A stretch of 64,000 nt of DNA from Haloprofundus halobius (GTDB lineage: Archaea; Halobacteriota; Halobacteria; Halobacteriales; Haloferacaceae), in assembly GCF_020097835.1 (NCBI RefSeq), contig NZ_CP083666.1:2170001-2234000 (forward strand), given 5' to 3'. The notes beneath the pieces were generated by a model. The model ran no database searches and was not told where the DNA came from. It saw only the letters and a program-made list of their open reading frames with translations. Shown here piece after piece: positions 31,974 to 49,340 of this stretch. The translations under genes and the position numbers were made by a program. Numbering within the stretch: the stretch's first letter is position 1; every line of letters starts with the position of its first letter.

Positions 31974-32171
31974 GTGAGCTCCACGATTCGAAATCTCGGG
32001 TGAATCGGACTGTGACCCGAACGACGACTCGGGATGGCTCCCTCCGCCCGGCTTTCGTATCAGTATCGAGTTACTTGTCGGCAGACAGGATCGAAGCGTG
32101 CGGAAAGCCGGCATTGTCAGCGGTACGATGGCGCTAACAATGTGGTTGTACGCAGACACCACCTCAGAACA

Positions 32172-33074
32172 GTGTCACATCACCAACTAACGAACGTACT
32201 CAGTTTCGACGTCGAACACTGGTATTCGGCGACGTTGCTCGCCGACAGCGTCGAGGACCCGGAGGACCGAATCGCCGAGTCGACCGACATCGTTCTCGAC
32301 GTTCTCAACCGCTACGACGTCCGTGCGACGTTCTTCGTCGTCGGCGAAGTCGCCGAGCAGTTCCCGTCTCTCGTCGGACGAATCGCCGACGACGGGCACG
32401 AAGTCGCCTCCCACGGACAGACGCACACGCCGCTTTTCGACCTGACGCCCGACACCTTCGAGCGCGAACTGGCGGCGTCGGCGGACGCGATAGAGCGGGC
32501 CTGCGGTCGGCGTCCCCGCGGCTTTCGCGCGCCGAACTTCTCGATAACGCGCCAGACAGAGTGGGCGTTCAAGGTTCTCGAAGACAGCGGCTACCGATAC
32601 GATTCGAGCGTGTTCCCGATGCGGACGCCGATGTACGGCGTCTCGAACGCGCCGCTTCGACCGTATCGAGTCCCGGAGAACGCGCCGTTTCGGCCGCCGA
32701 AGGCGAACACGCCGACGACCGGACTCGTCGAGTATCCGCTGGCGGTCACGGATACGTCCGTCAGACTCCCCGTCGCCGGCGGGTTCTACGCGCGCCTGCT
32801 GCCGACTCGCGTCGTCGAGTGGGGCATCCGCAGTCTCAACCGCCGGGGCATTCCGGCGACGATCTACTTCCATCCCTGGGAGTTCAACCCCGCCGTGGCG
32901 ACGCCGGAGCCGTCGCTGCCGAAGCGGTTCGTCAGCTTCCACGGCATCGAACGCACCGTCGAGAAACTGGAGCGGTTGCTGCGGACGTTCGAGTTCGGAA
33001 CGATACGCGACGAACTCGACGCTCGCGACTGGGCGGAACCGCGCGAAGCGACCACGACCGGAGAATCCGCATGA
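32172..33074 (+). CDS. Polysaccharide deacetylase, DUF3473 (XrtA-associated) type
   Basis: A 300-residue NodB-fold enzyme when started at GTG 32172 (VSHHQLTNVLSFDVEHWYSA); the frame extends upstream without coding character. Metal and catalytic motifs: LSFDVEHWYSATLL (DE pair), EVASHGQTHTPLFDL (HxxxH) and GFRAPNFSITRQ. The C-terminal part ending TIYFHPWEFNPAVATPEPS is the DUF3473 signature found in deacetylases of bacterial exosortase/XrtA polysaccharide loci. It would remove N-acetyl groups from surface glycan. Its TGA overlaps the ATG of the FemAB-like gene (33071-33074), so the genes are translationally coupled. Confidence 0.85.
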   Translation: MSHHQLTNVLSFDVEHWYSATLLADSVEDPEDRIAESTDIVLDVLNRYDVRATFFVVGEVAEQFPSLVGRIADDGHEVASHGQTHTPLFDLTPDTFERELAASADAIERACGRRPRGFRAPNFSITRQTEWAFKVLEDSGYRYDSSVFPMRTPMYGVSNAPLRPYRVPENAPFRPPKANTPTTGLVEYPLAVTDTSVRLPVAGGFYARLLPTRVVEWGIRSLNRRGIPATIYFHPWEFNPAVATPEPSLPKRFVSFHGIERTVEKLERLLRTFEFGTIRDELDARDWAEPREATTTGESA

Positions 33075-34153
33075 GCGACTCACGAACCACACGTTCGACG
33101 AGCGAGGAACCGACTATCGAACGCTGCGCCGATTCTACGGCGTGGGATCGCTTCGTCGAACGCGCCGACGGGCCGCCGTTCGCGCTGTGGGCGTGGGGCG
33201 ACGCCGCCGAGGCGTACGGCCACGACCGGTGGTATCTCGTCGCCCGCGAGGACGGCGACATCGTCGCCGGCCTCCCGCTCGTCCACATGACGAGCAGGCT
33301 GTTCGGCTCGAAACTCGTCTCGCCGCCGTACGGCGAGCGCGGGTCGGTGTTGCTCCGCGACGGTGATTCGGACGCCGCCACCGACCGCGCCGTCGACCGC
33401 CTCCTCGAACGGACCCGGGCGCTGGCGGACGCGCTCGGCGTCGAGTTCGTCAGCCTCCGCGGAAGTCGGGTCACCGAGATGCCGGGGTTCGAGCACAAAA
33501 ACCGGTTCGTCACGTTCCAGATTCCGCTGGAGTCGACGGAGGGCGTCTGGGAGGGCATCAAAGACAGCCGACAGCGCCAGGTCGCACAGGCCGAGGACGC
33601 CGGACTCACCTACCGAACCGGCGAGACGCTGGCAGACCTCGAAGCGTACTACGAGTTGTCGCTGCGGTCGATGCGCGGACACGGGACGCCGCCGCACTCG
33701 TTCGGATTTCACCGAACCATCTGGGAGGGCCTCGGCGACGACAACGTCCACCTCGGGATGGTCGAGTACGAGGGCGAGTTGATAAACGCGATTCTGGACT
33801 TCTCGCTCGGGTCGACCGTCCACCAGTGGGGCGTCGTCAACGACTACGAGTACCGCGACCTGAACGGGGGAAGTCTCGCGCTCTGGAAGTCGCTCGAACG
33901 CGCTAGCGAGGCGGGCCACGACACCTACGAGTTCGGCCGGACCCGCGAAGGCACGGGCGTCTACCTGTTCAAGAAGAGCTTCGGCGGGCGGAAGACGTGG
34001 TACGACGACTACCATTACTTCCCGACCGGTACCGGCGACCTGCCGCACCCCGACGACGACACGTACGACCGGGCCAAGGAGGTCTGGCAGCGACTGCCGA
34101 TTCCGGTGACACAGTACGTCGGCCCGCGGATTCGAAAGGAGATAAGCCTGTGA
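33071..34153 (+). CDS. FemAB-like GNAT transferase
   Basis: A 360-residue protein with tandem GNAT-like domains of the FemAB family: FALWAWGDAAEAYGHDRWYL, VAREDGDIVAGLPLVHMTSR, VWEGIKDSRQRQVAQAEDAG, LRSMRGHGTPPHSFGFHRTI, and VHQWGVVNDYEYRDLNGGSL with FGRTREGTGVYLFKKSFGG. In bacteria the closest type is the FemAB protein of XrtA/PEP-CTERM polysaccharide loci, which is thought to add an aminoacyl group to a sugar; here it follows the matching deacetylase, which would expose a free amino group. That pairing is inference. It overlaps its neighbours on both sides (ATGA and GTGA). Confidence 0.82.
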   Translation: MSDSRTTRSTSEEPTIERCADSTAWDRFVERADGPPFALWAWGDAAEAYGHDRWYLVAREDGDIVAGLPLVHMTSRLFGSKLVSPPYGERGSVLLRDGDSDAATDRAVDRLLERTRALADALGVEFVSLRGSRVTEMPGFEHKNRFVTFQIPLESTEGVWEGIKDSRQRQVAQAEDAGLTYRTGETLADLEAYYELSLRSMRGHGTPPHSFGFHRTIWEGLGDDNVHLGMVEYEGELINAILDFSLGSTVHQWGVVNDYEYRDLNGGSLALWKSLERASEAGHDTYEFGRTREGTGVYLFKKSFGGRKTWYDDYHYFPTGTGDLPHPDDDTYDRAKEVWQRLPIPVTQYVGPRIRKEISL

Positions 34154-35343
34154 CGCTGCACGTCGCGTACGTCGTCGGGCAGAGCACCGGCGGACTCCCC
34201 CATTACACCGCCGAACTCGCCAACGCCGTCTCGAAACACGCCGACGTCACGGTGTTGAAGCCCAAAGAGACCAGCGCCGACGACCTCTTCGCCGACAGCG
34301 TCGACGTCGTCGACGCCTTCGAGGCCATCAGCGTCTCGATGCCGAAGCTCTACAGTTTCGACGTCAACCCGCTCGACTTCGTCCGCGGGGTTCGTTCGTA
34401 CGCCAACCTCGAACTCCTCGACGAACTCGACCCCGACGTCGTCCACGACACGACGGATCTGTTCCCCCAGATGAAACTGTACGCCGGACTGCAGAACATC
34501 GGACGGCGGTGGCCGTTTGTCGTCACCCGTCACGAGGTGCCCGTCAGTCGGTTCTCGCTCTCGCGACCGCCGGTGCTGGTCGAGGAGCTGTTGAACGCCG
34601 CGCTGCCGAACGTCCACGAGTCGCAGTACGTCGTCCACTCGAAGAGGCAGAAAGCCGCTCTGGAGAGACAGGGCGTCGACGCCGACATCATCGAAGTCAT
34701 CCCCCACGGCGCGTACGCGGTGTTCGGCACCCACGAGGACGTGGAAGTCGAAAACGAGCCCAACAGTTTGCTGTTCTTCGGCAACATCGTTCCGCCGAAG
34801 GGACTCGACACGCTCGCGGAGGCGCTCCCGCTCGTCAAGCGCGAAGTGCCGGACGTGAAGCTGATGGTCGCCGGGGAGGGTCACCTGCCGCGTAAACTGA
34901 AGCGAGTGCGAAACGCGCACCCCGAGAACGTCGAGGTGCACAACTACTACCTGCCGAACGCCGAGGTGAAACACCTGTTCGGCCGCGCCGGAATCGTCGT
35001 CGCCCCGTACCGCAGTCAGGGCGGGACGAAGGGACACAGCGGCGCGGTGTCGACGGCGTTCTCGTTCGGCAATCCCATCGTCGCGTCGACGGCCGGGGAG
35101 TTCAAAGAACAGGTTCAGGAGACGGGCGCGGGGTTGGTCGTGCCGCCGGAGGACCCCGAGCGACTGGCGGCGGCCATCGTGAAGATACTGACGGACGACG
35201 AACTGCGCGAGTCGATGCGGCAGAACAGTCTGAAGATGGCCCAGCGACTCTCCTGGAGCAGCATCGCCGAACGTCACCTCGAACTGTACGAGCGACTCGC
35301 CGAGCGGACGCAGACGGCCGATTCGCCGGTGATCGAGGGATGA
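34150..35343 (+). CDS. GT4-family glycosyltransferase
   Basis: A 397-residue GT-B enzyme started at GTG 34150, overlapping the previous stop (GTGA). The N-terminal acceptor domain begins HVAYVVGQSTGGLPHYTAEL. The C-terminal nucleotide-sugar domain shows LLFFGNIVPPKGLDTLAEAL, VKLMVAGEGHLPRKLKRV, and VVAPYRSQGGTKGHSGAVST then AFSFGNPIVAS, the variant of the E-x7-E region of GT4. It transfers a sugar in the cytoplasm to a growing surface polysaccharide. It is central in a four-gene coupled unit (deacetylase, FemAB, GT4, GH16). Confidence 0.88.
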   Translation: MTLHVAYVVGQSTGGLPHYTAELANAVSKHADVTVLKPKETSADDLFADSVDVVDAFEAISVSMPKLYSFDVNPLDFVRGVRSYANLELLDELDPDVVHDTTDLFPQMKLYAGLQNIGRRWPFVVTRHEVPVSRFSLSRPPVLVEELLNAALPNVHESQYVVHSKRQKAALERQGVDADIIEVIPHGAYAVFGTHEDVEVENEPNSLLFFGNIVPPKGLDTLAEALPLVKREVPDVKLMVAGEGHLPRKLKRVRNAHPENVEVHNYYLPNAEVKHLFGRAGIVVAPYRSQGGTKGHSGAVSTAFSFGNPIVASTAGEFKEQVQETGAGLVVPPEDPERLAAAIVKILTDDELRESMRQNSLKMAQRLSWSSIAERHLELYERLAERTQTADSPVIEG

Positions 35344-36191
35344 GCCCGAGGAGGACTCCATCGAAGCGACTGTCGCGCCGCCGGCTCCTGCAGTCGGGTG
35401 CGATAGCGGCCACTCAGTTCGGGGCCGGATGTGTCACCGCCGGGAACGGTGGGCTCTCCGCCACTCGAAACCGGACCGACCAACAGGAGCCTCCGCCGAC
35501 CGCGCCGCAGAACCGACCAGTCGACACCTCCGACATGACGCTCGTCTTCGAGGACTGGTTCGAGGGCGACTCGCTCGACCGCTCGAAGTGGATGACGAAG
35601 TTCCCGTGGGACACGCGGACGCACAACTTCGACGCCTACGCCGCCGACGAGAACGCGTACGTCGAAGACGGTAAACTCGTACTCCTGGCGGAGGACAAAC
35701 CACGAGAGGAGATGTCGTACACGACGGGCGTCGTCGCGGCGGATTGGATTTTCGGCCCCGGTTACTTCGAGGGCGTGATGAAGGTGCCGCCACGGTTCCC
35801 GGGGTCGTGGCCCGCGTTTTGGCTCACGTCGGCGTCGGTTTGGCCGCCGGAGGTGGACATCTTCGAGTTCTTCGGCGATGACCCGAAGGCGTACATGAGT
35901 TACCACTACAACGGAGAGGACAACGAGATCGAGAGGGTGTACGACTCGTACGACGGGGGCGACTACAGCGACGGTTTCCACGAGTTCAGCGTCGACTGGG
36001 ACCCGCCCGAACGCATCGTCTGGTACATCGATGGCGAGGAGCGGTTCCGCTACACCGGCGACTACATCAAATTCGAGCACATGCACCTCATCTTGAACTT
36101 CGGCCTCGGAGCCGACTTCCTGGGGTATCCGAGTTCGGAATACCTGCCGTCGACGTACGAAATAGAACGCATCAGAGCGTGGGAGCGATGA
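35340..36191 (+). CDS. GH16 endoglycanase, Tat-exported lipoprotein
   Basis: A 283-residue protein. The N-terminus SRRRLLQSGAIAATQFGAGC is a Tat signal ending in a lipobox-like cysteine, so it is exported folded and likely anchored by lipid. The GH16 jelly roll spans about residues 65-283: DWFEGDSLDRSKWMTKF, FGPGYFEGVMKVPPRFPGSW, catalytic PPEVDIFEFFGDDP (E-x-D-x-x-E), FHEFSVDWDPPERIVWYIDG. GH16 enzymes cut or remodel beta-1,3/1,4 glycans. ATG 35340 overlaps the GT4 stop; its coupling to biosynthesis genes suggests trimming or release of the locus polysaccharide. Confidence 0.88.
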   Translation: MSPRRTPSKRLSRRRLLQSGAIAATQFGAGCVTAGNGGLSATRNRTDQQEPPPTAPQNRPVDTSDMTLVFEDWFEGDSLDRSKWMTKFPWDTRTHNFDAYAADENAYVEDGKLVLLAEDKPREEMSYTTGVVAADWIFGPGYFEGVMKVPPRFPGSWPAFWLTSASVWPPEVDIFEFFGDDPKAYMSYHYNGEDNEIERVYDSYDGGDYSDGFHEFSVDWDPPERIVWYIDGEERFRYTGDYIKFEHMHLILNFGLGADFLGYPSSEYLPSTYEIERIRAWER

Positions 36192-36251: not shown

Positions 36252-39116
36252 TCAGTTGGCGAAGTCGGTCTCGGTGCCGTCGAGCGTCGTGACGACGTCG
36301 CCGCCGAACGTCGAGACGTCGGTGATTTCGCCCCCGACGAGCCAGTAGGCGTCGGTTCCGCTGACGACCTTACCGAAGACTTTGCCGCCGTTTACCTCGT
36401 CGTCCGGGTTGATGGACGAGCGAGGCACGTCCGCCTTCAGAAGTCTCCCCGTCGACTCGACCATGTACTTGACGAGGCCGTCGCTGTCGGCCGCGCGCTG
36501 GACGCGGAACAACTGGACTGGTTGCCCGTCGAGCGTGACAGTCGCGTCACCGTCGAGCGAGAGCCCTTCGAGTTCGCCCTCGAAGCCGAAGACGGCCTGA
36601 CCGTCGCTCACGGATCCGCTGGCGGAGCCGTCCGAGATAGACGCCTCGTCGCTCGCACCGCTGTCGGCTTCGAGCGCTCCGCTGACGGAGAACTCGTAGT
36701 TGGTCGTCCCCGAGGAACCGCTGCCGTCGACGGTGAGCGTGTTCGGCAGCGACGAACCCGACTCCTCGTCGTCGCCGTCCTCGCCGTCGGTGTCGCCTCT
36801 CCCGTCGTCTCCCGATTCGACCAGTTCGTCGGGTTCGACGTACTCGTTGTCGAGGTAAATCTCCAGACTCCCGGAGTAGTCGAACGACGTGATTTCGCCA
36901 TCGCAGTAGAATCCGGGGAGTTGACCGTTCTGCGAGTCAGCGGTCCCGCGTGCGGTCGTGTAGTCGGACGAGACGCTGTAGTCGTTCGACGCGGGGTTAG
37001 AGAGTTCCTGCTTCACAACAGCGCCGTCGACGGTAAACTCGAACTCTCCCGTTCCGTCCGAATCGGCACGAATCCAGATGAAGTGTTCGTCGGGAGACGG
37101 TGCGTCCTGCGAAGAGTCCTGCGAGGAGCCTTCCGAGGAGTCCTGCGAGGAGTCTTCCGAAGAGTCCTGCGAGGAGTCTTCCGAAGAGTCCTGCGAGGAA
37201 CCTCCCGAGGAGTCCTGTGAGGAGTCTTCCGAAGAGTCTCCCGTGTTTCCACCGGAGAAACGCCCGTCGATATTCAGGTCTACCGACCACTGACTGCCTT
37301 CATCGGTCTGATACTCGTCGAGATGCGGCGAGTAGGTCGTGGCTTCGACGGTGAGCGTATCGGCGGACTCCTCCAATCCGAGAAGGCGGAGCCATCCGTT
37401 CCCTCCGTTGTCACGGGTCTGGTAGTTCGCGAGCATTTCGAGCACGTCGTTCCCCGCGTCGTTTTGGCTGACTTGGTGGTACTCGCCCGCTTCGTCCGGG
37501 TCGTCGCCGTCGTATTCGTGTCCACAGAGGACCATCACGATCTGGTCGTTCTGTGAGACGAAGTCCTCCCAAATCTCTTCGCCCGAATACCCGTCCTCGT
37601 TCTCTTCGTCTTCCCACGTTTTTCGACCCGTCTGCCCGGGGATATCGGTGAGGTATTCGTGCGTAGAGACAATCGTCGGCAGACCCGAGTGGTCGTCGAC
37701 GACGCTCTGTGCCCACTCTAACGCCCCTCGGGACGGTGCACCCTCCCATTCGAGCGCGATGTTCAGCCACTCGCGGCCGCCGGCCTCGAAGATCTGGTAG
37801 TGGCTGAAATCTTCGTGAGAACCACCGTACCACGAGTAGTCGCTGTACCGAGACTCGCCGAAGTATTCGGGATAGAGCGACTCTCCGCTCCGGTCTCCGT
37901 AAGGTTCCCAGTCGTGGTTCCCGTTACAGACGGAGTAGGGGAGTTCCCCGTCGAGAACACTCAACACACCGTCTAAGTCCTCGTACTCGCTCTGTGAGTC
38001 CCCGTTCTCGACTACGTCACCGACGTGGGTGGCGAAGGCGATGGACTCGCTGTCGGCGTTATCGACTATCCACTCCGTCTGCGAGCGGGCGATATCGACG
38101 CCATCACCGCTAAAGACGTACTTCTGCGTGTCGGGGATGTGAGCGATAGTGAACGGTCCGTCGACGTCTTCGGACGTCTCTTCGGTGTCGTCGCCGTCGC
38201 TTGACTCGTTCGATGATCCGCTGCTCGACTCGCCGTCGTTGCCGTACTCCCAGACGCGGACCCAGTCGACCGCCATCTCCTCGTCCCAGTTCTCCGACTT
38301 GTCGGTCGTTCCGACGCGGTCGATGTGGATGGAGAGCATCATGTAGAACGGCGCGCCGTTGTTGCAGGACTCGACGATGGTGTCGGCGGTGCGCTCCGCG
38401 ACGAGTTGACCGTCGACGTAGTGTCGAATCGCGTCCTCCTGCCACTCGCAGCCGTAGACGTGGAAGTTCTCGCAGAGGTCGTTCCCCACGTCGTAGCTGG
38501 CCCCGTCGTCCTCGTGCGGACCGTTCGGTTCCGTGTCCGACGAGTAGTGGATGTGGTGGTGCGACTGCGTGTAGTCGTCCGACGAACCGTCCGTCTGGAA
38601 CAGTTCGACGAAGTCGATCTCGGGCGGCCAGTCCTCGCTGTCCGGCTTCGCCCAGAACGCCGGCAGGAAGCCGACGCGCTTGGGGAACCGAATCTTCGCC
38701 TCCCAGTAGCTGCCGGGGCCGAACGTCTGCAGCCCCTTCGTGTTCACCGCGCCCGCTTCGATGCCGTTGTCGGGCGACGCCCCTATTCGAAGCTGACCGT
38801 CGGTGACGTTAACGTACTCCTCTGAGATGCTCTCCGGCGAGGCGTCAGTCTCCATGCCCCATCCGAATCCGACTCCCCAGTTCGAGGTGTCGAGCGACCC
38901 GCTGTCGAAGGTGTCCTCGAAGGCGAGCGTCCACTCGTTCTGGTTCGACGGGCCTCCCTCGCTCACGTCTGCAACACCACTCGTGCTGGCGCCGAGTCCG
39001 CCGAGCAAGGCGGCGCTCGCGCCCGTGAGTTTGAGGTAGCCCCGCCGGTCGATAAGCTTGCTGTCGTCCGAGTCTTCGCTACTGTACGTGTCGTCTGACA
39101 GTTGTTCGCGTGCCAT
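36252..39116 (-). CDS. Secreted GH16-metallophosphoesterase fusion with Ser-rich linker
   Basis: A 954-residue protein. Residues 22-45 (DRRGYLKLTGASAALLGGLG) are a Tat signal. A GH16 domain follows (about 58-290; EAKIRFPKRVGFLPAFWAK, catalytic PPEIDFVELF at about 165-174). Next is a calcineurin-type metallophosphoesterase (about 318-620): IAHIPDTQKY, ATHVGDVVENGD, VCNGNHDWEPYG, VMVLCGHEYDGDDP. Then a 45-residue linker of SSQD/SSED units (about 625-675) and two copies of the local beta module (EFEFTVDGAVVKQEL... and NYEFSVSGALEADSG...). A glycan hydrolase joined to a phosphoesterase suggests attack on a phosphorylated extracellular polymer. Transcribed convergently to the GH16 lipoprotein gene. 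Confidence 0.85.
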   Translation of the reverse strand: MAREQLSDDTYSSEDSDDSKLIDRRGYLKLTGASAALLGGLGASTSGVADVSEGGPSNQNEWTLAFEDTFDSGSLDTSNWGVGFGWGMETDASPESISEEYVNVTDGQLRIGASPDNGIEAGAVNTKGLQTFGPGSYWEAKIRFPKRVGFLPAFWAKPDSEDWPPEIDFVELFQTDGSSDDYTQSHHHIHYSSDTEPNGPHEDDGASYDVGNDLCENFHVYGCEWQEDAIRHYVDGQLVAERTADTIVESCNNGAPFYMMLSIHIDRVGTTDKSENWDEEMAVDWVRVWEYGNDGESSSGSSNESSDGDDTEETSEDVDGPFTIAHIPDTQKYVFSGDGVDIARSQTEWIVDNADSESIAFATHVGDVVENGDSQSEYEDLDGVLSVLDGELPYSVCNGNHDWEPYGDRSGESLYPEYFGESRYSDYSWYGGSHEDFSHYQIFEAGGREWLNIALEWEGAPSRGALEWAQSVVDDHSGLPTIVSTHEYLTDIPGQTGRKTWEDEENEDGYSGEEIWEDFVSQNDQIVMVLCGHEYDGDDPDEAGEYHQVSQNDAGNDVLEMLANYQTRDNGGNGWLRLLGLEESADTLTVEATTYSPHLDEYQTDEGSQWSVDLNIDGRFSGGNTGDSSEDSSQDSSGGSSQDSSEDSSQDSSEDSSQDSSEGSSQDSSQDAPSPDEHFIWIRADSDGTGEFEFTVDGAVVKQELSNPASNDYSVSSDYTTARGTADSQNGQLPGFYCDGEITSFDYSGSLEIYLDNEYVEPDELVESGDDGRGDTDGEDGDDEESGSSLPNTLTVDGSGSSGTTNYEFSVSGALEADSGASDEASISDGSASGSVSDGQAVFGFEGELEGLSLDGDATVTLDGQPVQLFRVQRAADSDGLVKYMVESTGRLLKADVPRSSINPDDEVNGGKVFGKVVSGTDAYWLVGGEITDVSTFGGDVVTTLDGTETDFAN
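37105..37239 (-). repeat. Coding tandem repeat of 12-bp units (SSQD/SSED)
   Basis: About eleven imperfect 12-bp units encode alternating SSQD and SSED blocks, a flexible acidic linker between the phosphoesterase and beta modules. The near-identity of units indicates slippage-type expansion and predicts length variation between strains. Confidence 0.85.
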
Positions 39117-39622
39117 GCGTACGGATTCGAGAATATCCTGGGTATTAATAGTTCTTTTCTTTGAGAAAGTGTTTGCCTCGTGTTACTAGATTACTCCACC
39201 TAGTGTATCTAGTCTAGAAAACAACTTATTGTGGAGAATAATATTAGTTAGGATATAACTAATAAAAAAGACCACCACAGTCCGAGCTTATCTGAAATAC
39301 GATATGTCTGTATAAAGGTATTGTGGCTCATAAAGTGACTAAAACCGGCGTTAACAGTCTAGATACAATTATCTAGAATAGCCAATTATTCTATGAATTC
39401 GAACAGTACTCGCCTCGTACGGAACGGGCAGGAGATGTCACGCAGTTTTCTGTGCCCCTCCGTTCGAATCAGTAGTGATTGGACGGCCACTACAGATAAA
39501 TTCAGGAAAGTAATCTGATATGGAAAGATGTGGATCCTACATTTAGAATATGATATGTTCTCGGATAGATTGCGTTCCGGGAACTACCGAACAGCTAACA
39601 CTGTCGAGCGACTCGACTACGT
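39117..39622. promoter_or_regulatory. AT-rich divergent promoter region with CTAG palindromes
   Basis: About 500 bases between the minus-strand GH16 fusion gene and the plus-strand DUF457 gene, far more AT-rich than its surroundings. It contains perfect inverted repeats ATTAGTTA/TAACTAAT (39243-39263, 5-base loop) and TCTAGAT/ATCTAGA (39358-39377), plus several further CTAG words. CTAG is usually avoided in such genomes, so the cluster is notable. It probably carries both promoters and operators; no coding frame is supported. Confidence 0.55.
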
Positions 39623-40207
39623 ATGTGGCCTTGGGGACACCTCGCGTTCGGATACGTCTGTTACTCGCTGTGGTCGCGTCTCGACGCGGGCAGTCCGCCG
39701 AGCGGCGTCGCGACGCTCGCGCTCGCGTTCGGCACCCAGTTTCCGGACTTGGTCGACAAACCGTTGGCGTGGACGCTTCGGTTGCTCCCGAGCGGTCGCT
39801 CGCTCACCCACTCGGCGTTCACGATGGTGTTCGTCGTCGCCGCCGTCTACGTCTACGCTCGCCGACGCGGAAAGCGAGAACTCGCCGTGGCCTTCGGAGT
39901 CGGGTACGCTTCGCATCTGCTCGGCGATTCGCTGTACTCGTTGCTCAGCGGAGAGTACTGGGAACTGGCGTTTCTGCTTTACCCGCTGACCTACACCGAC
40001 TACGGCGTCGAGTACGGTTTTCTGTACCACCTCTCGATGTTGAGTGTGTCGAGTATCTCCAGCCCCGAGGTCGGCCTCGTTCTCGCCGTCACCGCGCTGT
40101 GGGTTCTCGACGGCGCACCGGGGCCGCTGGCACTCAAATCGCTGCTGGAACGGGCGTACGGGCGTTTCCTCCGCGCGTCAGAAAGCGAGGTCGGACGAAG
40201 CGGGTGA
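39623..40207 (+). CDS. Membrane-bound metal-dependent hydrolase (DUF457/YdjM-like)
   Basis: A 194-residue multi-pass protein with the family metal ligands in order: WPWGHLAFGYVCYSL (His), FGTQFPDLVDKPLAW (Asp), LLPSGRSLTHSAFTMVFVV (His) and VGYASHLLGDSLYSLL (His, Asp). Helices alternate with these motifs, so the active site lies in the membrane interface. Related proteins include LexA-controlled YdjM; substrates are mostly unknown. Position in a surface-polysaccharide locus suggests a lipid-linked or membrane substrate, which is inference. Start ATG 39623 (MWPWGH) is preceded by the AT-rich region. Confidence 0.85.
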   Translation: MWPWGHLAFGYVCYSLWSRLDAGSPPSGVATLALAFGTQFPDLVDKPLAWTLRLLPSGRSLTHSAFTMVFVVAAVYVYARRRGKRELAVAFGVGYASHLLGDSLYSLLSGEYWELAFLLYPLTYTDYGVEYGFLYHLSMLSVSSISSPEVGLVLAVTALWVLDGAPGPLALKSLLERAYGRFLRASESEVGRSG

Positions 40208-40399
40208 ACTACCTCCACCCTACTCGCTCACGGCTTGCGCCGTTCGTTCGGTGAGGATAGGGGTCGTTCGTGAAGGCTCGGACACCGGTGGCGGCGACGG
40301 AACCGACGAATCAGATGGAGTGACTGTTCCGACCTCGCGAACATATATTAATTAGCTGTCAGTTCGTGTCTATCCACAGCATTTGGAGTATCCACACTA

Positions 40400-41002
40400 A
40401 TGATAGCAACTACCGGCCTCTGGGATTCGGTCGGCGCCCCGACTAGCTTTTCGACGAACGCAGTCGCGTGTGTTCGGTCTCTCGGGTCACAGAACGACCA
40501 CGCCATCGTCGCCTCCGAACACGACGACGTGTCGGCGTTCGCCTCCCGAAGCTGCGACGAGACCCCACCGATACCGTTGCCGAACGACGACTTCCCGGCG
40601 TACGAGAACGCGCCGCCCGCGGTCGCGCCTCGTTTCGACGTTCGGAAGGTCGGTCCGACACGGGAGATGGACGCGTACAACCTCTCGAAGTGCCGCTCTG
40701 AGGTCGCCGAGGGGAGCGGGGTGCCGACACCGAAAACCGAGACGCTCGACGCAGTCGGCGACTGGGGCCGCAAACTCATCGCCAAGCAACGTTGCCCGAT
40801 TCTGGCCGAGAGGTGCGTCGACTGCCACGAATCGGGCACCTGCGAGGGGCGAGTCGAGTCGAGAGACCTCGAATCGGTCGTCGAACCGGAGACGGAGACG
40901 AAAATCGAGCGGAGGCGCGATACCCACTTTGGCCTCCTGAGCATCGACACTCCGCACCGCTTTGTTCGAGGTGTCGTCGACACGCTATCGAGAGGTCGGT
41001 AA
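40400..41002 (+). pseudogene. Remnant of an ATP-grasp (carboxylate-amine ligase-like) gene
   Basis: The 200-codon frame retains pieces of a haloarchaeal ATP-grasp protein: FSTNAVACVRSLGSQNDHAI at the N-terminal domain, then EMDAYNLSKCRSEVAEGSGV and PTPKTETLDAVGDWGRKLIA at the start of the ATP-binding domain. The segment between them is about 60-70 residues shorter than expected, and the lysine strand reads LIAKQRCP where the family has LIVKPRY. After that the sequence drifts and stops, so over half of the catalytic domain is absent. It is most likely a deletion remnant; intact members of the family are common next to polysaccharide genes. Confidence 0.6.
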
Positions 41003-41122
41003 TCTGTGTGGACGGACAGCGGTGGTCGACAGTCGAACGCGGCGAGTGATCGAACACAGCCGCGGAGACTGGACAGTATCGGGCCGACAGTAAAACCGCG
41101 AAAAACGAGACGGAGCTAATCA

Positions 41123-42556
41123 ATGGACCTTGGTCGCTCGTCGTTCAGCATGGTGCTCTCGAAGAGTGGTAACGCTCTCCTGATGTTCGGCGCCATCACC
41201 TTCTTCGCTCGGGCGCTCGACTCGACGCAGTTGGGGATCTTCTTTCTCTTCTTCGCCGTACAGGGACTTCTGTCGATTCCGGCCGATCTGGGTCTCCGTG
41301 GAGCACTGGAGAAGCGCCTCAGCGAGGGGGGAGACGTGGAGACGATACTCGGCTCCGCTCTCGCGTTCAAAATGGTACTGTTGGGGGTCGTCTCGCTGGC
41401 GATTCTCGCGTTTCGACCGTGGATAAACGACTACCTCGGTGCCGACCTCGCGGGACTCCTCATAATCACCCTGGTGCTCCGAGAGCTCGGAATGCTGTAC
41501 ATTCGCGCGGTACGCGGCGAACTCCGCGTCGGCGAAACCGCACCCATCGAGTTCGCCCGGCGGTTCGTCTGGGTCGCGGTCGGAGTGATCCTCGTCACGC
41601 AGGGGTTCGGTATCCTCGGCATCGTATACGGCCTCATACTCGGTTCTGCGGTCTCGCTGATTTGGGCGTACGCGAAGTGTAGCATCGCCATCGGGAGCCC
41701 CTCGATGGTGGAGGTGAAGTCGCTTTTCGCCTTCTCGAAGTACGACACCATCACCTCGGTCGGCGGCGAAATCTACCAGTGGATGGACTCGGCGTTCATC
41801 GGATTCTTCCTCGCCGCCCATTTCGTCAGCGTGTACGAGATCGCGTGGCAGATCACGCTGCTCGTCATCCTGGTGAGCAGGTCCATCTCGCTGACGCTGT
41901 TCCCGCAGATAAGCCAGTGGAACGCCACCGCCTCGAACGACCTCATCGAGGAGACCCTCTCGAACGCTGTCGGCTTCGCCGTCTTCGTTTCGATTCCGGC
42001 CATCGTCGGCTCGATGCTCTACTCGACGGAGATTCTCCACTACATCTTCGGACCGGAGTACACCGTCGCCTCGCTCGTACTCGTAATTCTGATGATAGAG
42101 AAGCTGTTTCAGTCGTTCAACGACATCGTCGGCAGAACCGTCCGGGCGATAGATCGCCCTGACCTCGCCGCGAAAGCGACGGTCGTCTCCGTCAGTATGA
42201 ACCTGGTTCTCAACCCGATACTCATCGTCTCCATCGGGTTCGTCGGTGCGGCTATCGCTACCACCATCTCGTGGTTCTTCAACATGCTCCTCCACACCCA
42301 CTATCTCTCCCGGTACATCACCATCCAGATTCCGTACCGGCTCATCGGGTGGTACACGGTCATGTCGCTGGTGATGGGCGGGGTTCTCCTCGTGGTCAAG
42401 TCGGCGCTGCCCGTGACTGGACTCTCCCTCTTGATCGGACAGATCGGACTCGGCACCGCCATCTATTTCGCCGCGGCAGTCGTCGTGCCCGACGTCCGGA
42501 GACGGATCGTCGTTCCGGGGCTCCGAATCATCGGGATACGGGTCGACTGGCGCTGA
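41123..42556 (+). CDS. Oligosaccharide flippase (polysaccharide biosynthesis protein)
   Basis: A 477-residue multi-pass protein of the MOP superfamily (Wzx/AglR type) with about 14 helices. It starts MDLGRSSFSMVLSKSGNALL and shows LLSIPADLGLRGALEKRLSE, FALASKYD-like FAFSKYDTITSVGGEIYQWM, ISLTLFPQISQWNA and ILIVSIGFVGAAIATTISWF, all typical of lipid-linked oligosaccharide flippases. It would turn the lipid-bound sugar units made by the locus glycosyltransferases to the outer face. Length is normal. It stands between the ATP-grasp remnant and the DUF2206 gene on the same strand. Confidence 0.88.
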   Translation: MDLGRSSFSMVLSKSGNALLMFGAITFFARALDSTQLGIFFLFFAVQGLLSIPADLGLRGALEKRLSEGGDVETILGSALAFKMVLLGVVSLAILAFRPWINDYLGADLAGLLIITLVLRELGMLYIRAVRGELRVGETAPIEFARRFVWVAVGVILVTQGFGILGIVYGLILGSAVSLIWAYAKCSIAIGSPSMVEVKSLFAFSKYDTITSVGGEIYQWMDSAFIGFFLAAHFVSVYEIAWQITLLVILVSRSISLTLFPQISQWNATASNDLIEETLSNAVGFAVFVSIPAIVGSMLYSTEILHYIFGPEYTVASLVLVILMIEKLFQSFNDIVGRTVRAIDRPDLAAKATVVSVSMNLVLNPILIVSIGFVGAAIATTISWFFNMLLHTHYLSRYITIQIPYRLIGWYTVMSLVMGGVLLVVKSALPVTGLSLLIGQIGLGTAIYFAAAVVVPDVRRRIVVPGLRIIGIRVDWR

Positions 42557-42740
42557 GTCGGCTGGCCGTCCCCGACCGTTCAGTCGTCGAAAAACTCTTC
42601 CGAGTACGACGTAACTCCCAAAGTGAGAGAAATTATATGTAAATCACGCTGGTAGAACCATTATATCTGGTTGTCACGTCGTGTGGCCCGAGTCGACGCG
42701 CTCGGCCTTCGACATCGCAACCGGAGCGGATATCAAACCT

Positions 42741-45098
42741 ATGGCACAAAATATCTCCCAAACAGAGATGCAGGTGGCGTGGAGCCCGATCGCAATCGTC
42801 ACCGTCGTCGGTGGTCTGCTCGTCGCCTTCTGGGCAAGCACGCTCGTCTCGGCATCCACGCCCGTCTTCTCGGGTGTTCGAGTGCTCACCGCGAGCCTCC
42901 TCTTTCTGTTCTTCCCCGGTGCGTTGGTGATTCGCCTGCTCGACCTTCGAGTGCGTTCGTTCGGTCCGTTCGTCGTGCTCTCCGTCGGATTGAGTTTCGC
43001 CATCCTCTCGGCGGTAACGATCACGACGAGTGTCGCCTTGCCGGCTCTCGGCGTGACGGCGCCGCTGGCGTTGGTGCCGCTCGGGGTCGTGCTCTCGCTC
43101 GTCGTCGCGGGCCTGGTCGCGCTCGTCTCCTCGACGGACACCGAACTCCCGAGGCTGAACACCGACTTCGGGGTGTCGACGCCCGTACTCGCACTCGTCA
43201 CGTTCCTGCCGACCGTCGCCGCCGTCGCGACCATCCTCATGGACAGCAGCGGCAACAACGCCGGGATGTTCCTGTTCGTCGTCGCGACCGCGTTCGTCGC
43301 CGTTCTCGCGTCGGTTCGACACCTCCCGTCGACGTTCTATCCGCTCACCGTCTTCTCGGTCGCGCTCTCGATGGTCCTGCACCGGAGCCTGTTGACCGAC
43401 CACGTCGTCGGAGCGGACATCCAGAACACCTTCTTCGTCTCGTCGGTCATCGGCCGCGCGGGCGTGTGGAGTCCGGAGATAAACGGGACGTCGATGGCCG
43501 TTCCGATGATGACGTCGGTCCCGGTATCGGTGACGGTGCTCACCGGTATCGGACTGCCGACGACGTTCAAGGTGACCTACGCGCTTCTGTTCGCACTCGT
43601 CCCGGTCGGGATGTACTACATCGCGCGTGAAGTGTTCGACTCGAACATCGCGCTGTTCGGAAGCCTCTTCATCTCGTTCTACCACCTCTCGTTTTACTTC
43701 ACGCCCGGCAAGCAGTTGGTCTCGCAACTGTTCGTCGTCGGACTGATGCTGCTCTACGTTCGGACACGGCTCGCCACGACCGGGAGTAAAGCCGCCGCGG
43801 TTCTCCTGGCAGTCGGGCTTGTCCACAGTCACTACGCGGTGACGTACGTGCTCGGAATCTCGCTTCTCGTCGCCGTCACCGGGCTCTTTCTGACGCGACG
43901 GATCGTCGGCAAGTTCGACCACGGACTCTCGTTTAGCTACCCGCTGATTCTCCTCGGCGGAGCGACGGCGTGGTACGTCTACTCTTCACAAGAGCTGGTT
44001 TCGACGCTCGCGTCCATCCCGATAAGCCTCCGCGACCAGATAATCACACTCCTTCTGACCGGGATCGTCCAGGGGTCGGGCAGCAGCTACGTCGCCGGCC
44101 CGTCGACGTACCTCGACGACCTCCGTCTCCTGCTCTACGTGGTGTTCTCGTTACTGCTGACGGTCGGGCTAGCCCGGCACGCCCTCACCCAACTGCGCCA
44201 GATCTGGGACGGTGAGGCCCCCGACTACGTGGAGTACACGGCGTTGGCGGTCCCGCTCCTCGTCTTCCTGTGTTCGGCGTACTTTTTCACCATCAACCTC
44301 TGGGCCGACAGAGCGTACCAGTTGGTGCTCGTCGTCCTCGCGCCGTTCATGCCGCTCGGCTATCGAATCCTCGTCGAGGATTTCAACACCGTCCGCAGCG
44401 CCATCTCCTCGCGCGACTTCTCGCCGGAACGGGCCTCGATCGGACGGGGCAGTTGGACCGTCCTCGCAGTACTTCTCGCGGTGCTTCTGGCGTTCAACTC
44501 CGGTATGGTGTTCGCGGTCGCCGGCCCCGCCCAGACGGCGTCGTTCAACCCCGAGGCGCACGACTATGCGTTCAGCGAGGACGAGCGCGCCGGCGCGAAC
44601 TGGCTGCTCGTGAACACCAACATCACGGAAACCGAGGCGTACACGCCGGACCAGACTGACAACTCGGACGAGGTTCCGGTGTTCACCGACTCCGTCAGCA
44701 GTCAGATGTTCAGGTCGGAACTCCCCGACAGCTACTACACCAGCGAGACGATCGACCTCAAGGATCGCTGGGACCCCCAACTGGATCTCGACCGGGTAGA
44801 CAGGGGGTACGTCTACCTCCGCCACCGTAGCGTCGTCGACGTCGACCCCGACGAACCCGTGTCGACGGACCACCTCTCGAAAGCCAACGAGACGGTGATA
44901 ACGTCGACGCACCACGTCGTCTACAGCAACGGGAACGCCAGCGTCGTCAAGGTCCAACCGGAGATGGTCGGCAACGAGACGCAACCGTGGAACGACTCCT
45001 CGAACGTGTCGCCGCCGCCGGCAGAACTCACGGCGGCGGAGACGACGCGTTCCGACGTTTCTCATGCGCGGCACTCGAACGGGGGAAGTCGACGGTGA
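42741..45098 (+). CDS. DUF2206-type large membrane protein
   Basis: A 785-residue protein from ATG 42741 (MAQNISQTEMQVAWSPIAIV); an in-frame GTG at 42681 would add 20 residues. About 14 helices come first (VTVVGGLLVAFWASTLVS, FLFFPGALVIRLLDLRV, LLYVVFSLLLTVGLARHAL), then an extracellular C-terminal domain (SEDERAGANWLLVNTNITET, YVYLRHRSVVDVDPDEPVST). The pattern, including the early aspartate-containing loop DHVVGADIQNTFF, resembles DUF2206 and GT-C glycosyltransferases, so it may transfer or polymerise sugars outside the membrane. Several NxS/T sites are present. Its stop overlaps the next start (GTGA, 45095-45098). Confidence 0.8.
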   Translation: MAQNISQTEMQVAWSPIAIVTVVGGLLVAFWASTLVSASTPVFSGVRVLTASLLFLFFPGALVIRLLDLRVRSFGPFVVLSVGLSFAILSAVTITTSVALPALGVTAPLALVPLGVVLSLVVAGLVALVSSTDTELPRLNTDFGVSTPVLALVTFLPTVAAVATILMDSSGNNAGMFLFVVATAFVAVLASVRHLPSTFYPLTVFSVALSMVLHRSLLTDHVVGADIQNTFFVSSVIGRAGVWSPEINGTSMAVPMMTSVPVSVTVLTGIGLPTTFKVTYALLFALVPVGMYYIAREVFDSNIALFGSLFISFYHLSFYFTPGKQLVSQLFVVGLMLLYVRTRLATTGSKAAAVLLAVGLVHSHYAVTYVLGISLLVAVTGLFLTRRIVGKFDHGLSFSYPLILLGGATAWYVYSSQELVSTLASIPISLRDQIITLLLTGIVQGSGSSYVAGPSTYLDDLRLLLYVVFSLLLTVGLARHALTQLRQIWDGEAPDYVEYTALAVPLLVFLCSAYFFTINLWADRAYQLVLVVLAPFMPLGYRILVEDFNTVRSAISSRDFSPERASIGRGSWTVLAVLLAVLLAFNSGMVFAVAGPAQTASFNPEAHDYAFSEDERAGANWLLVNTNITETEAYTPDQTDNSDEVPVFTDSVSSQMFRSELPDSYYTSETIDLKDRWDPQLDLDRVDRGYVYLRHRSVVDVDPDEPVSTDHLSKANETVITSTHHVVYSNGNASVVKVQPEMVGNETQPWNDSSNVSPPPAELTAAETTRSDVSHARHSNGGSRR

Positions 45099-46087
45099 CC
45101 GACTCGAACGACCGTCCGCTGGTCTCGTACATCGTTGCGACGTTCAATAGAGCCGACGACCTGGCGGACGCCGTCGACTCCGTTCTCGCCCAGCAGTACC
45201 GACCGCTCGAGGTGGTCGTCGTCAGCAACTCGACGGACCGAGCGCGGGAGGCCGAACTGTTCGAGGACGGCGGTCGGTTCGACCTCGACTGCGTGCAGTA
45301 CCACCACTACCCGGAGCGGATGGGCGCGCCGGGCGCGAAGAACGTCGCAATCGAACACGCCTCCGGCGAGTTCGTCGTCCAGATAGACGACGACGCCGTG
45401 ATGGTCGACGAGGACGCGACCGACGAAGTGCTCAGACTGTTTGAGCGGTACGAGGACGTCGGAATCTTGGCGTTCAAGTCGCTCGACTACTACACCGGCG
45501 AGGTGAAAGTCGACGAGACGCCCGACGCGCCGGAGTTCCACATCTCCCCGGAGGAGCAGTACCGGACCACGAGCTTCATCGGTATGGGGACCGCGTTCCG
45601 GCGCGAGATGTTCGAGACGACCGGACTGTACCCCGACAACTTCGTCTACGGATTCGAGGAGATGGACCTCTCGATACGGGCGCTCGACGCCGGCTACGAC
45701 ATCCTCTACGCGCCCTCGGTCGCGGTGTACCACAAGAAGACGCCCGAGGGGAGAATTCCCGACACGGAGACCAAAGAACGCCTCGTCGAGAATCGCATCA
45801 ACATCGCCGTCCGCAACCTCCCGTGGCGGTACGTCCTGTTCACGACGCTCATCTACTCCGTCTACGTGGTGTTCCTCACGAAGAGCGTCTCGTCGCTCGC
45901 GAACGTGTACCGCCGACTGTACGGGAAGCGGGACCGACTCCGCGCCGAACGGAATGTCGTCGACAGACGGACCATCGAGCGCATCAAGTCGCGAAAGACG
46001 ATGCTGTTTCTCTGGTGGTACGGACCGCACCCGAAGCGAATCTTCGGCCCGGACGGTGACCTCGGTCGACTGAAGTGGGAAGCATAA
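45095..46087 (+). CDS. GT2 glycosyltransferase, rhamnosyltransferase-like
   Basis: A 330-residue GT-A enzyme started at GTG 45095, overlapping the DUF2206 stop. Motifs: SYIVATFNRADDLADAVDSV, VVVSNSTDRAREAELFEDGG, ASGEFVVQIDDDAVMVDED (DXD region), FIGMGTAFRREMFETTGLYP and GFEEMDLSIRALDAGYDILY (the ED motif of inverting GT2). A C-terminal hydrophobic stretch (YVLFTTLIYSVYVVFL) associates it with the membrane. It would add a sugar to the locus glycan. Translational coupling links it to DUF2206. Confidence 0.88.
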   Translation: MTDSNDRPLVSYIVATFNRADDLADAVDSVLAQQYRPLEVVVVSNSTDRAREAELFEDGGRFDLDCVQYHHYPERMGAPGAKNVAIEHASGEFVVQIDDDAVMVDEDATDEVLRLFERYEDVGILAFKSLDYYTGEVKVDETPDAPEFHISPEEQYRTTSFIGMGTAFRREMFETTGLYPDNFVYGFEEMDLSIRALDAGYDILYAPSVAVYHKKTPEGRIPDTETKERLVENRINIAVRNLPWRYVLFTTLIYSVYVVFLTKSVSSLANVYRRLYGKRDRLRAERNVVDRRTIERIKSRKTMLFLWWYGPHPKRIFGPDGDLGRLKWEA

Positions 46088-46470
46088 ACAGGAAGCATAA
46101 CTAAATTGACTGTTTTTGGGGAGCTCCGGAAGAACCCTCCAATCGAGAAGAACGTAGTCCCCGATTATAGACAGTAGGCGGAGAAAACGCCCGAGCGAAG
46201 CGCCGAGAGACCACCCCGCTCGGCTTCGAAACAGTCCGGTAGCGCCCCGCTAGAGACGGTATCACCGGGCCTAGTCGGGAGAACGTATCAGCTACCGATC
46301 CCGCGCGAGGAATCGTCAGCGCCGCAGAAGGACCATCAGTCGACGAGCGGGTTTCGTGTGTCAGACGAATCGGCGAATACGAGACGTACCAGTTGGAATG
46401 CACTTACGCGTAGATAGCCTGACAATACTAAATTCGGACAGTTCCGTGTGTCCTGTCGGAATCAAAGTGC
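46088..46470. other. Intergenic region upstream of the secreted-repeat genes
   Basis: About 380 bases with no supported gene. The minus-strand frame at 46101-46403 lacks protein character. AT-rich words near 46410-46440 (ACAATACTAAATTCGG) may be the promoter of the gene at 46471. Confidence 0.4.
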
Positions 46471-48066
46471 ATGACACGACAGAATCAGACCCGAAGGCGG
46501 TTTCTCGCGGGGAGTGCAGCAACGCTCGGTTCGCTGTCAGTTCTGACCGGCGGGGCGGGCGCCCGGACGTCGACGCGGATACTTGCGGTCGTCAACGCGA
46601 CCGGTGACGGTCCGGCGAAGTACCGATTCAGCGTCGACGGCGACGTCGAGAAGACGACGGAGACCGGCGGCGCGCCGAACGGATTCGCCTCGCTCAACGA
46701 CGACGACCGTCTCACCGAGACGACCGCCGAAGGACGCGTCCACGGCGGTGCGGACGCGTACCGCATCTCCGGTTCTCTGACCAGTCTGGTCGTCGAGGGC
46801 GGCGCGGGCGTCTACGTCGACGGCGAGGAGATCGACGCGGGCGACTACCCGTCCCCGAGCGTACTCGCGATGACGGGAGACGGCGAGTACACGTTCTCGG
46901 CTGACGGCAGCGTCGCGAAGACGATACTGACCGGCGGCGCGGACGTGCCGCCCGCGTCGCTCAACGACGCCGACACCGTCGACGGCACCGACGTCTCGGG
47001 GTCGACGTTCGGCGGCACCGACGCGTACGTCGTCGACGGCGAGCTCACCGAGTTCGATCCGGCGGACGGACTCACCGCGTTCCTCGACGGCGAGGAGTAC
47101 ACGGGGCCGTCGGACGGGCGAGGCGAGACCGGTGGCACCGACGACGCCGACGACACCGGCGGTGACGAAGACGATGGCGGAGAGACGGCCGCCCCCGAAC
47201 TGTCGTTCCCCGACTGTACGACCGTCGAGATATCGGGGTCGTTCGAGGCGGCGTCGCTGGAAGTACTGGTCGAGGACGACGACCCCGAGACGACGCCGAT
47301 GGAGCAGGTGTACGAGTACGAGAACGACGACGGCGCAACCGAAGCGACCGTCTCGGTTCCGGCGGACGAGTTCGGTCCGTATCAGGTCGTCGAGTACGCA
47401 ATTGTCACCTACGGCGACGGGCGGACCGTCGAGGCGACGAATCCGGACGCGGGCGCGTGTCGCGACGAGACGTTCCCGGCGACGGAACCGACCGTCGAGT
47501 TCCCCGACTGTACGACTGTCGAGATATCGGGGTCGTTCGAGGCGGCGTCGCTGGAGGTACTGGTCGAAGACGACGATCCCGAGACGACGCCGATGGAGCA
47601 GGTGTACGAGTACGAACACGACGGCGAGTCCGAGGACGCGACGGTGAGCGTCCCCGACGACGAGTTCGGCCCGTACCAGGTCGTCGAGTACGCCACCGTC
47701 ACCTACGACGACGGGCGGACCGTCGAGGCGACGAATCCGGACGCGGGCGCGTGCCGGGACGAGACGTTCCCCGTCGAGCGAAGCCTCGAGTTCGTCGACT
47801 GCACCACCGTACACGTCGCGGGCGCGTTCGACGACCTCTCCATCGAAGTGCTCGTTCGGGACGACATGCCGACGACGCCGATGGAACAGGTGTACGAACA
47901 CGAGGGCGACGGCGAGTCCGAGGAGACGACGGTGAGCGTCCCCGACGGTGAGTTTGGCCCGTACCAAGTCGCCGAGAGAGCGACCGTGGTCTACCCCGAC
48001 GGCGAAGTCGTCGAGGCGACGAACCCCGACGCGGGCACGTGTCGAGACGAGACGTTCCCGGAATGA
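46471..48066 (+). CDS. Tat-exported repeat protein with two beta modules and three C-terminal repeats
   Basis: A 531-residue secreted protein. QTRRRFLAGSAATLGSLSVL is a Tat signal. Two beta modules follow (about 35-118 and 128-212), with KYRFSVDGDVEKTTETGG and YTFSADGSVAKTILTGG as hallmark strands and the ends VYVDGEE and AFLDGEEYTGP. After an acidic linker come three tandem repeats of 97-98 residues (from about 244, 342 and 439), each starting PDCTTV or VDCTTV and ending VEATNPDAG then CRDETFP. Paired Cys in each repeat could form disulphides. No catalytic motif. It looks like a structural or adhesive cell-surface protein; this is inference. Next to a paralogue and a glycan locus. Confidence 0.75.
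   Translation: MTRQNQTRRRFLAGSAATLGSLSVLTGGAGARTSTRILAVVNATGDGPAKYRFSVDGDVEKTTETGGAPNGFASLNDDDRLTETTAEGRVHGGADAYRISGSLTSLVVEGGAGVYVDGEEIDAGDYPSPSVLAMTGDGEYTFSADGSVAKTILTGGADVPPASLNDADTVDGTDVSGSTFGGTDAYVVDGELTEFDPADGLTAFLDGEEYTGPSDGRGETGGTDDADDTGGDEDDGGETAAPELSFPDCTTVEISGSFEAASLEVLVEDDDPETTPMEQVYEYENDDGATEATVSVPADEFGPYQVVEYAIVTYGDGRTVEATNPDAGACRDETFPATEPTVEFPDCTTVEISGSFEAASLEVLVEDDDPETTPMEQVYEYEHDGESEDATVSVPDDEFGPYQVVEYATVTYDDGRTVEATNPDAGACRDETFPVERSLEFVDCTTVHVAGAFDDLSIEVLVRDDMPTTPMEQVYEHEGDGESEETTVSVPDGEFGPYQVAERATVVYPDGEVVEATNPDAGTCRDETFPE
47200..48063 (+). repeat. Three tandem coding repeats of about 294 bp
   Basis: Units begin near 47200, 47494 and 47785. The first two are almost identical at the DNA level over long stretches, which indicates a recent duplication or gene conversion; the third has diverged. 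Confidence 0.88.
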
Positions 48067-48332
48067 CGGCCGTTCGACCGACGGAGACGTAACACTTCGT
48101 TGTCGTACTCCAGTCGTCGATTGAGAGCCGCTGTCGGGGACGGCGACGGCTCCAATCCGGACGTTTTCGTCGCTGTTGCGTCCGACCCCGCCGAAACAAC
48201 GCGGGGTTGAGAGACCGGTCCGGACGGTAACGTTCACGAACGGCGGATAGTCAGATAAATACACAAGTACTCGGTGCTGAATAAAGCTTAAGATGCAACT
48301 CAATGTGGCCTTAGCCGGAAGCGAAGAAGTCA

Positions 48333-49340
48333 ATGAAGGAAACACATACAAGCCGCCGGACGTTCCTCGCTGGCAGTCTCACAGCCCTCGGCGCAACCGC
48401 GACAACGATGACCGTACACGCACAAGAAACTGAGTGGAGAAACGTGGTCGTCTCGGGTACTCCCGGGTCCGGGCCGGTTCGCTACGAACTGGAGTCCGAC
48501 GGAACCGTCGAGAAGACGACCGAGACGGGCAGCGCGCCGGTCGACGGCGCGTCGATAAACGCCAACGACACGCTCGAAGGGAGCTACGCGAGCGGGGTCG
48601 TCGTCGGGGGCGTCGACGCATACCGGTACACCGGCGAACTGACGCTGCTGTCGGTGGAGGGCGACGCGACTGTCTACCTCGACGGCTCACAGACCGACCC
48701 CGACAGCGTCGGCGAGAGCTACGACTACCTCACGGTCGTCGGCGACGGACCGCGGACGGAGTACAGCTTCGAAACCGACGGCGACGTGGCGAAAACGAAC
48801 ATGACCGGCGGCGCGCCGAAGAGCTACGCGTCGATTCAGGGCGGCGACACCGTCGACGGCGGGTCGGTCAGCGGCACGGTGCTCGGCGGCGTCGACGCCT
48901 TTCGCGTCTCCGGCGACATCACCGCCTTCGAGCTCTCGGGCGGGACCGCGTACCTCAACGGGCAGGAGTACACGGGACCGGGCGGCGACGACGAAGACGA
49001 CGACCGCGGCGGGGATTCGGACGCGGCGATTCGATTTACGGGCTGTACGGGCGTCGAAGTGGACGGGAAGTTCGATCAGGTGTCGCTGTCGGTGCTCGCC
49101 GCCGACGCGGGCTGTCAGACGGGGACTCGCTACTACGAACAGGAGTACGTCTACGGGTTGGCCGAGAGCGAAACCATCGAAGGGACGACGGCGGTCGACC
49201 TCCCGGACGGCCACTTCGCGGAGTACCAGATGGTCGAATCGGCGACCGCGGAGGGAGACGAGACCGTCGAGGTGACGAACCCCGACGCCGACGCCTGCCG
49301 CGACGAGATGGAGTCGCAGCTCGAATCGGCCTGCGACTAA
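48333..49340 (+). CDS. Tat-exported paralogue with two beta modules and one C-terminal repeat
   Basis: A 335-residue secreted protein. TSRRTFLAGSLTALGATATT is a Tat signal. Two beta modules follow (about 35-125 and 130-214): VRYELESDGTVEKTTETGSA, then VVVGGVDAYRYTGELTLLSV; and YSFETDGDVAKTNMTGGAPK, ending AYLNGQEYTGP. After an acidic linker there is one diverged copy of the C-terminal repeat (GCTGVEVDGKFDQVSLSVLA ... VEVTNPDADACRDEM). It is a clear paralogue of the gene just upstream. No enzyme motif; a surface role is inferred. A TATA-like ATAAATAC lies near 48253. Confidence 0.75.
   Translation: MKETHTSRRTFLAGSLTALGATATTMTVHAQETEWRNVVVSGTPGSGPVRYELESDGTVEKTTETGSAPVDGASINANDTLEGSYASGVVVGGVDAYRYTGELTLLSVEGDATVYLDGSQTDPDSVGESYDYLTVVGDGPRTEYSFETDGDVAKTNMTGGAPKSYASIQGGDTVDGGSVSGTVLGGVDAFRVSGDITAFELSGGTAYLNGQEYTGPGGDDEDDDRGGDSDAAIRFTGCTGVEVDGKFDQVSLSVLAADAGCQTGTRYYEQEYVYGLAESETIEGTTAVDLPDGHFAEYQMVESATAEGDETVEVTNPDADACRDEMESQLESACD

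Follow-up and report, generated by a model that had tools for sequence, protein, structure and literature searches.

Three proteins of secreted type, encoded around a glycan assembly operon, carry copies of one small module in the window, i.e., the whole 64,000-nucleotide stretch of Haloprofundus halobius DNA that was analysed here. What is this module, and does it make the three proteins parts of one system? A sequence-only reading had located the genes (P0001, the GH16 protein, and the two paralogues P0002 and P0003; P1, P2 and P3 below) and described six copies of the module. We have found the genes at the same positions (Table 1), and the module is indeed common to all three proteins, as leave-one-out profiles link them far beyond chance. 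A profile from the four P2/P3 copies alone recovers the GH16 protein among the 577 window ORFs at E=4.5e-22, and a profile from two GH16-protein copies alone recovers P3 at 2.3e-15 and P2 at 6.2e-12, while no unrelated ORF among the 577 reaches better than E about 1. The count should be seven rather than six, because a third copy lies at the very C-terminal end of the GH16 protein; that is, this protein has three in tandem, and P2 and P3 have two each. The hallmark motifs proposed earlier match P2/P3 well, whereas the GH16 protein has eroded versions of them, and its modules are just 23-27% identical to the first P2 module (P2a). The copies were also described as lying in one locus; seven do, but six more are found elsewhere in the genome, which holds 13 copies in five proteins. 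Of these six, four belong to a beta-helix protein of 886 aa and two to a protein of 509 aa. The 886-aa protein is encoded on a small 49 kb replicon (G000 contig C5:7758-8864, locus L010), and the corresponding gene on an H. salinisoli plasmid has glmS, glmM and a glycosyltransferase gene nearby.

Table 1. Features of the window (positions are those of the window).
Feature	Position	Strand	Evidence or content
GT2	30019-31353	+	
DUF1616	30753-31973	+	
Polysaccharide deacetylase/DUF3473	32034-33074	+	
GT4	33997-35343	+	
Second GH16, secreted type	35340..36191	+	EVDIFE motif, no module
P0001 (GH16 protein)	36252..39116	-	Tat-type leader, GH16 domain, metallophosphatase-like domain, Ser/Asp-rich linker, three modules
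Module copy 3 of P0001, C-terminal	36255..36515	-	six-copy profile, domain E 3.2e-12
Module copy 2 of P0001	36504..36746	-	profile match
Module copy 1 of P0001	36822..37091	-	profile match
Metallophosphatase-like segment, P0001 linker	37272..38159	-	motifs read by eye
GH16 catalytic domain of P0001	38247..38939	-	PF00722 2.8e-15
Oligosaccharide flippase	41123-42556	+	
DUF2206 membrane protein	42681-45098	+	
GT2, last gene of operon	44987-46087	+	
P0002 (P2)	46471..48066	+	Tat-type leader, two modules, three copies of second ('CTT') domain
Module copy 1 of P0002	46576..46845	+	profile match
Module copy 2 of P0002	46855..47112	+	profile match
Three tandem CTT domains of P0002, two conserved Cys	47200..48060	+	
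P0003 (P3)	48333..49340	+	Tat-type leader, two modules, one CTT domain, C-terminal helix in model
Module copy 1 of P0003	48435..48707	+	profile match
Module copy 2 of P0003	48717..48983	+	profile match
CTT domain of P0003	49026..49316	+	

Tat export had been proposed for all three proteins. A twin-arginine leader is visible in each of the sequences, although the Tat models score P0001, P0002 and P0003 under their cut-offs. The membership of P1 in GH16 is clear from its Pfam match, the E-[ILV]-D-x-x-E motif is intact as EIDFVE at residue 166, and the NCBIfam ExoK and EglC models match the protein below cut-off. Its GH16 domain is 86-87% identical (~290 aa) to the orthologues of two congeners and 52% identical to that of a third. 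ExoK/ExsH-type GH16 glycanases are encoded in exopolysaccharide clusters. P1 resembles them in that its catalytic motif is intact and its gene lies in a biosynthetic cluster of exopolysaccharide type, and differs from them in its three module copies and in the metallophosphatase-like insertion of this strain. The latter was recognised by eye from the motifs PDTQ, GDVVENG, GNHDW and GHE, and no metallophosphatase family model of Pfam matches the middle of P1 at E<=1; the orthologues in the three congeners (591-630 aa) all lack the segment, so that among these genomes it is present in this strain only. P2 and P3 in turn contain a second uncatalogued domain, CTT, which is ~93 aa long with two conserved Cys ('DCTTVE..GSF....NPDAGACRDE') and is present three times in P2 and once in P3. 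This domain is rarer than the module, being found in 26/194 haloarchaeal genomes of 13 genera, and it meets the module again at two other loci (L165 and L090).

The module itself is a discrete, uncatalogued domain of about 85 residues. It had been called undescribed, and our searches agree with this: no family in Pfam, NCBIfam or PHROGs matches it, the PHROG viral tail and host-range proteins included, and the profile search of PDB sequences gives nothing significant, its top hits being chains with BNR/Asp-box repeats of the sialidase type (E 0.026). Among 21 diverse modules, none is matched by a CBM family of Pfam (as distinct from CAZy's own models) at E<=0.1, or by the cadherin-like Pfam models. 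The beta character proposed earlier is borne out by structure prediction, in which a single module, modelled by AlphaFold with a 21-sequence alignment, is predicted as all beta with high confidence (mean pLDDT 96.2, pTM 0.86). A Foldseek search of this model against PDB gives no match at E<=0.001, with the best TM-score <0.5. Below that threshold, the top match is the CBM2 of Cellulomonas fimi (6qfs; E 0.02, probability 0.85, TM 0.36), followed by DUF4425 (probability 0.93, TM 0.49) and, lower, a Pyrococcus chitin-binding domain (2czn), all of them weak; the search with the whole P0003 returned multi-domain beta noise only. The predicted fold leans towards a CBM-like beta fold, though this proves nothing. 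Across 272 modules, conservation is seen at G7, Y16, G22, G47, D54 (Asp in 81%), Y/F56, F58, G60 and D81-P82 (Asp in 78%), and the modules are strongly acidic, with a mean net charge of about -13.7. They have no invariant Trp, unlike typical type A CBMs, and the conserved aromatics Y16, Y/F56 and F58 sit in strands, where they may just form the core.

Whole-genome profile searches detect the module at E<=1e-3 in 204/292 haloarchaeal genomes, with up to at least 17 copies per genome in this survey, and give no match in the remaining 88. In a phylum-wide draw, the 35 matching genomes all belong to one order, and about 240 genomes of the same phylum from outside the class have no module. The genus g39 appears to have expanded the family, since one of its genomes (G044, contigs C15, C16, C27 and C30) has 26 copies, including a 1348-aa carrier and carriers of PPC type. 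Most carriers have one to four copies in tandem arrays, and one has nine; 84% have a twin-arginine leader by a loose pattern. In a sample of 38 carriers, one per genome, Pfam recognises a right-handed beta-helix in 17, GH16 in two, and polysaccharide deacetylase, CBM35/CBM6 and PKD domains in one each. Beta-helix and RHGA/pectate-lyase types also occur among other carriers, and thioredoxin-like or PPC domains in a few. The module is C-terminal in most carriers, while in L185, L192 and L204 it is N-terminal of deacetylase or lyase-like domains (the latter as read from sequence). In P2/P3 and in L206, the modules make up a large share of the protein. That is, the module is found at either end of glycan-active domains that are unrelated to one another, and also on proteins in which no enzyme is recognised; an accessory binding module behaves in this mobile way.

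The enrichment of carriers near glycan loci, which the sequence-only reading implied, holds in other genomes. Glycan-assembly genes (any of GT2, GT4, flippase, DUF2206, DUF1616 and deacetylase, by profiles seeded from annotated glycan genes) lie near 46/79 carrier loci versus 6/59 controls (p=4.9e-9); carriers themselves are excluded from the neighbour counts, and controls are other positions of these genomes, for the most part on the contig of the carrier. The proportions are 22/40 versus 4/40 in a first sample, which was drawn from high-scoring matches, and 24/39 versus 2/19 in a second, with one locus per genome from genomes of 29 genera; in both, related genomes do not count as independent. 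The flippase alone is found at 26/79 carrier loci versus 1/59 controls, and FemAB/GNAT at 17/79 versus 0/59. For about 42% of carriers, no glycan gene was detected within 8-9 kb. The co-occurrence with GH16 also recurs: GH16 plus modules is found inside exopolysaccharide-type clusters of three other genera. In Halobaculum marinum and at L207 the combination lies with GT2, DUF2206 and flippase genes, and at L195 with GT2, GT4 and deacetylase genes. We do not claim a locus on the H. mediterranei megaplasmid as the genetically proven exopolysaccharide cluster of that species.

Since the module is found on enzymes of sugar polymers across most haloarchaea and next to exopolysaccharide genes, it is probably a polysaccharide-binding tag. 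Our main reading, to which we give a probability of roughly 0.6, is that it is an uncatalogued haloarchaeal CBM-like accessory domain which binds exopolysaccharide by avidity. Avidity for the acidic exopolysaccharide of the cell itself would come from several weakly binding copies in a row; the modules of P1 would hold the GH16 glycanase on its substrate, where chains might be trimmed or released, and P2/P3 may be matrix proteins without enzymatic activity. As read from sequence, the three proteins have no evident membrane anchor at their ends, which makes it plausible that they are retained by binding the polymer. Like CBM2, CBM40 and CBM35/6, the module is a discrete beta domain that occurs in tandem and is appended to diverse carbohydrate-active domains. 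It is a discrete domain also in the CAZy sense of a CBM, having a confidently predicted fold and being attached to GH16, deacetylase and beta-helix proteins. Against this reading stand the lack of a sequence link to CBM families and of a significant fold match, the resemblance to CBM2 being weak, as well as the missing invariant Trp, the carriers with no glycan gene nearby and the few thioredoxin-like or PPC carriers, and the genomic linkage would be the same for a passive spacer. Overall, the module belongs to a familiar kind of domain, and as a family it is new and uncatalogued.

The closest parallel in function is the Ply/Rap system of Rhizobium leguminosarum, where Ra/CHDL domains are common to the PlyA/PlyB glycanases and RapA/RapD, bind the acidic exopolysaccharide of the producer itself and shape the matrix (PMC9298526). 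These domains are C-terminal on the exopolysaccharide-cleaving enzymes, while the non-enzymatic proteins consist of two of them or of one plus an unknown domain (PMC9298526). In both cases one small beta-domain family would serve glycan enzymes and non-enzymatic proteins alike, which is a functional parallel: by analogy the module would work like that system, but it is no member of it by sequence, having no match to the cadherin-like models. Further differences are the Tat-type export of module carriers instead of type I secretion and the longer tandems, and the module is known here from sequence and model. The wider proposal is that the family is haloarchaea-specific and acts as a common matrix address tag on beta-helix lyases, GH16 glycanases, deacetylases and non-enzymatic matrix proteins, i.e., as an independently evolved archaeal counterpart of Ply/Rap; this we regard as tentative, with the odds somewhat against it.

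Whether P1 and P2/P3 serve the same polymer is a separate matter, and here the genes around them have to be considered. The GH16 protein and its operon are conserved together in three congeners, with the P2/P3 pair about 24-38 kb away, and in a fourth (G022) the pair is present while 18 kb upstream and 14 kb downstream of it contain no GH16 operon. The homology of the P2/P3 block begins sharply at 46,129-46,147 in all four and continues through 59 kb. As it starts just past the last gene of the operon, an exopolysaccharide island meets another, conserved chromosomal block in the window, with a sharp boundary of homology at 46082-46147. The proposal of one system and one polymer for all three proteins is not supported, since the pair is never beside the GH16 operon in the four congeners. 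It is close to an even call, if a little short of one, that there are two separate stories which the window merely joins: a GH16 protein in the island, and a duplicated, lineage-specific pair that belongs to the neighbouring block and has another ligand. The restriction of P2/P3 relatives to Haloprofundus and the low identity between the P1 and P2 modules agree with this as well. On the other side, the region left of the block in congeners is a different one but again of glycan type (GT4, DUF1616, PL14-like, beta-helix and FemAB-type genes), so that P1 and P2/P3 may share a ligand after all. With the seed HMMs, the pair in G022 had seemed to lack glycan neighbours, which was overturned when Pfam identified GT4, DUF1616, PL14-like and FemAB-type genes there. 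The pair is therefore glycan-associated in general, while no observation connects it with the polymer made by the GH16 operon. Two separate stories would be compatible with exopolysaccharide binding by the module and limit the same-polymer claim only. Overall, the earlier observation was essentially right apart from a small undercount, and its interpretation is partly supported, being of the right kind but unproven as regards the specific local claim. As for the rest of the window, the ORFs at 39550-40254 and 40400-41002 are probably not genes, and the real gene there seems to be the frame 39623-40207, which encodes a small membrane protein. Positions 1-30000 have a lower GC (50-60% versus 58-70% beyond) and genes for Cdc6/Orc1, a TraG/TrwB-like 1197-aa ATPase, and HNH and LAGLIDADG-type proteins; this part looks like an integrated mobile element.

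Two further explanations do without exopolysaccharide binding, and both retain some probability because linkage and architecture look alike for them and for binding. The module might be an Ig/PKD-like stalk adapted to halophiles, which would stiffen or lengthen secreted proteins and have no specific ligand. Tandem arrays of up to nine copies in variable number, the strong acidity, the one carrier that also has PKD domains, and conservation mainly at Gly and possibly core aromatics would all suit such a spacer; yet there is a strong bias of carriers towards glycan-active folds and glycan loci, modules are much of the protein in P2/P3 and L206, and the conserved Asp at D54 and D81 exceed what a spacer needs, which makes this explanation unlikely. 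It is decidedly improbable that the module instead tethers enzymes to the cell by binding the S-layer glycoprotein, its glycans or another module, since an enrichment at exopolysaccharide-type loci is unexpected for a general surface anchor and many haloarchaea have no module, even though the missing membrane anchors of P1-P3 and the spread of the module among unrelated secreted proteins would fit.

Irrespective of the ligand, the module marks hundreds of secreted haloarchaeal proteins, many of them annotated as hypothetical, and ties them to polysaccharide processing, and its profile can be added to domain databases. If the module does bind exopolysaccharide, it would offer a handle on how archaeal biofilm matrices hold together, as well as a salt-stable binding domain that may be used at high ionic strength.
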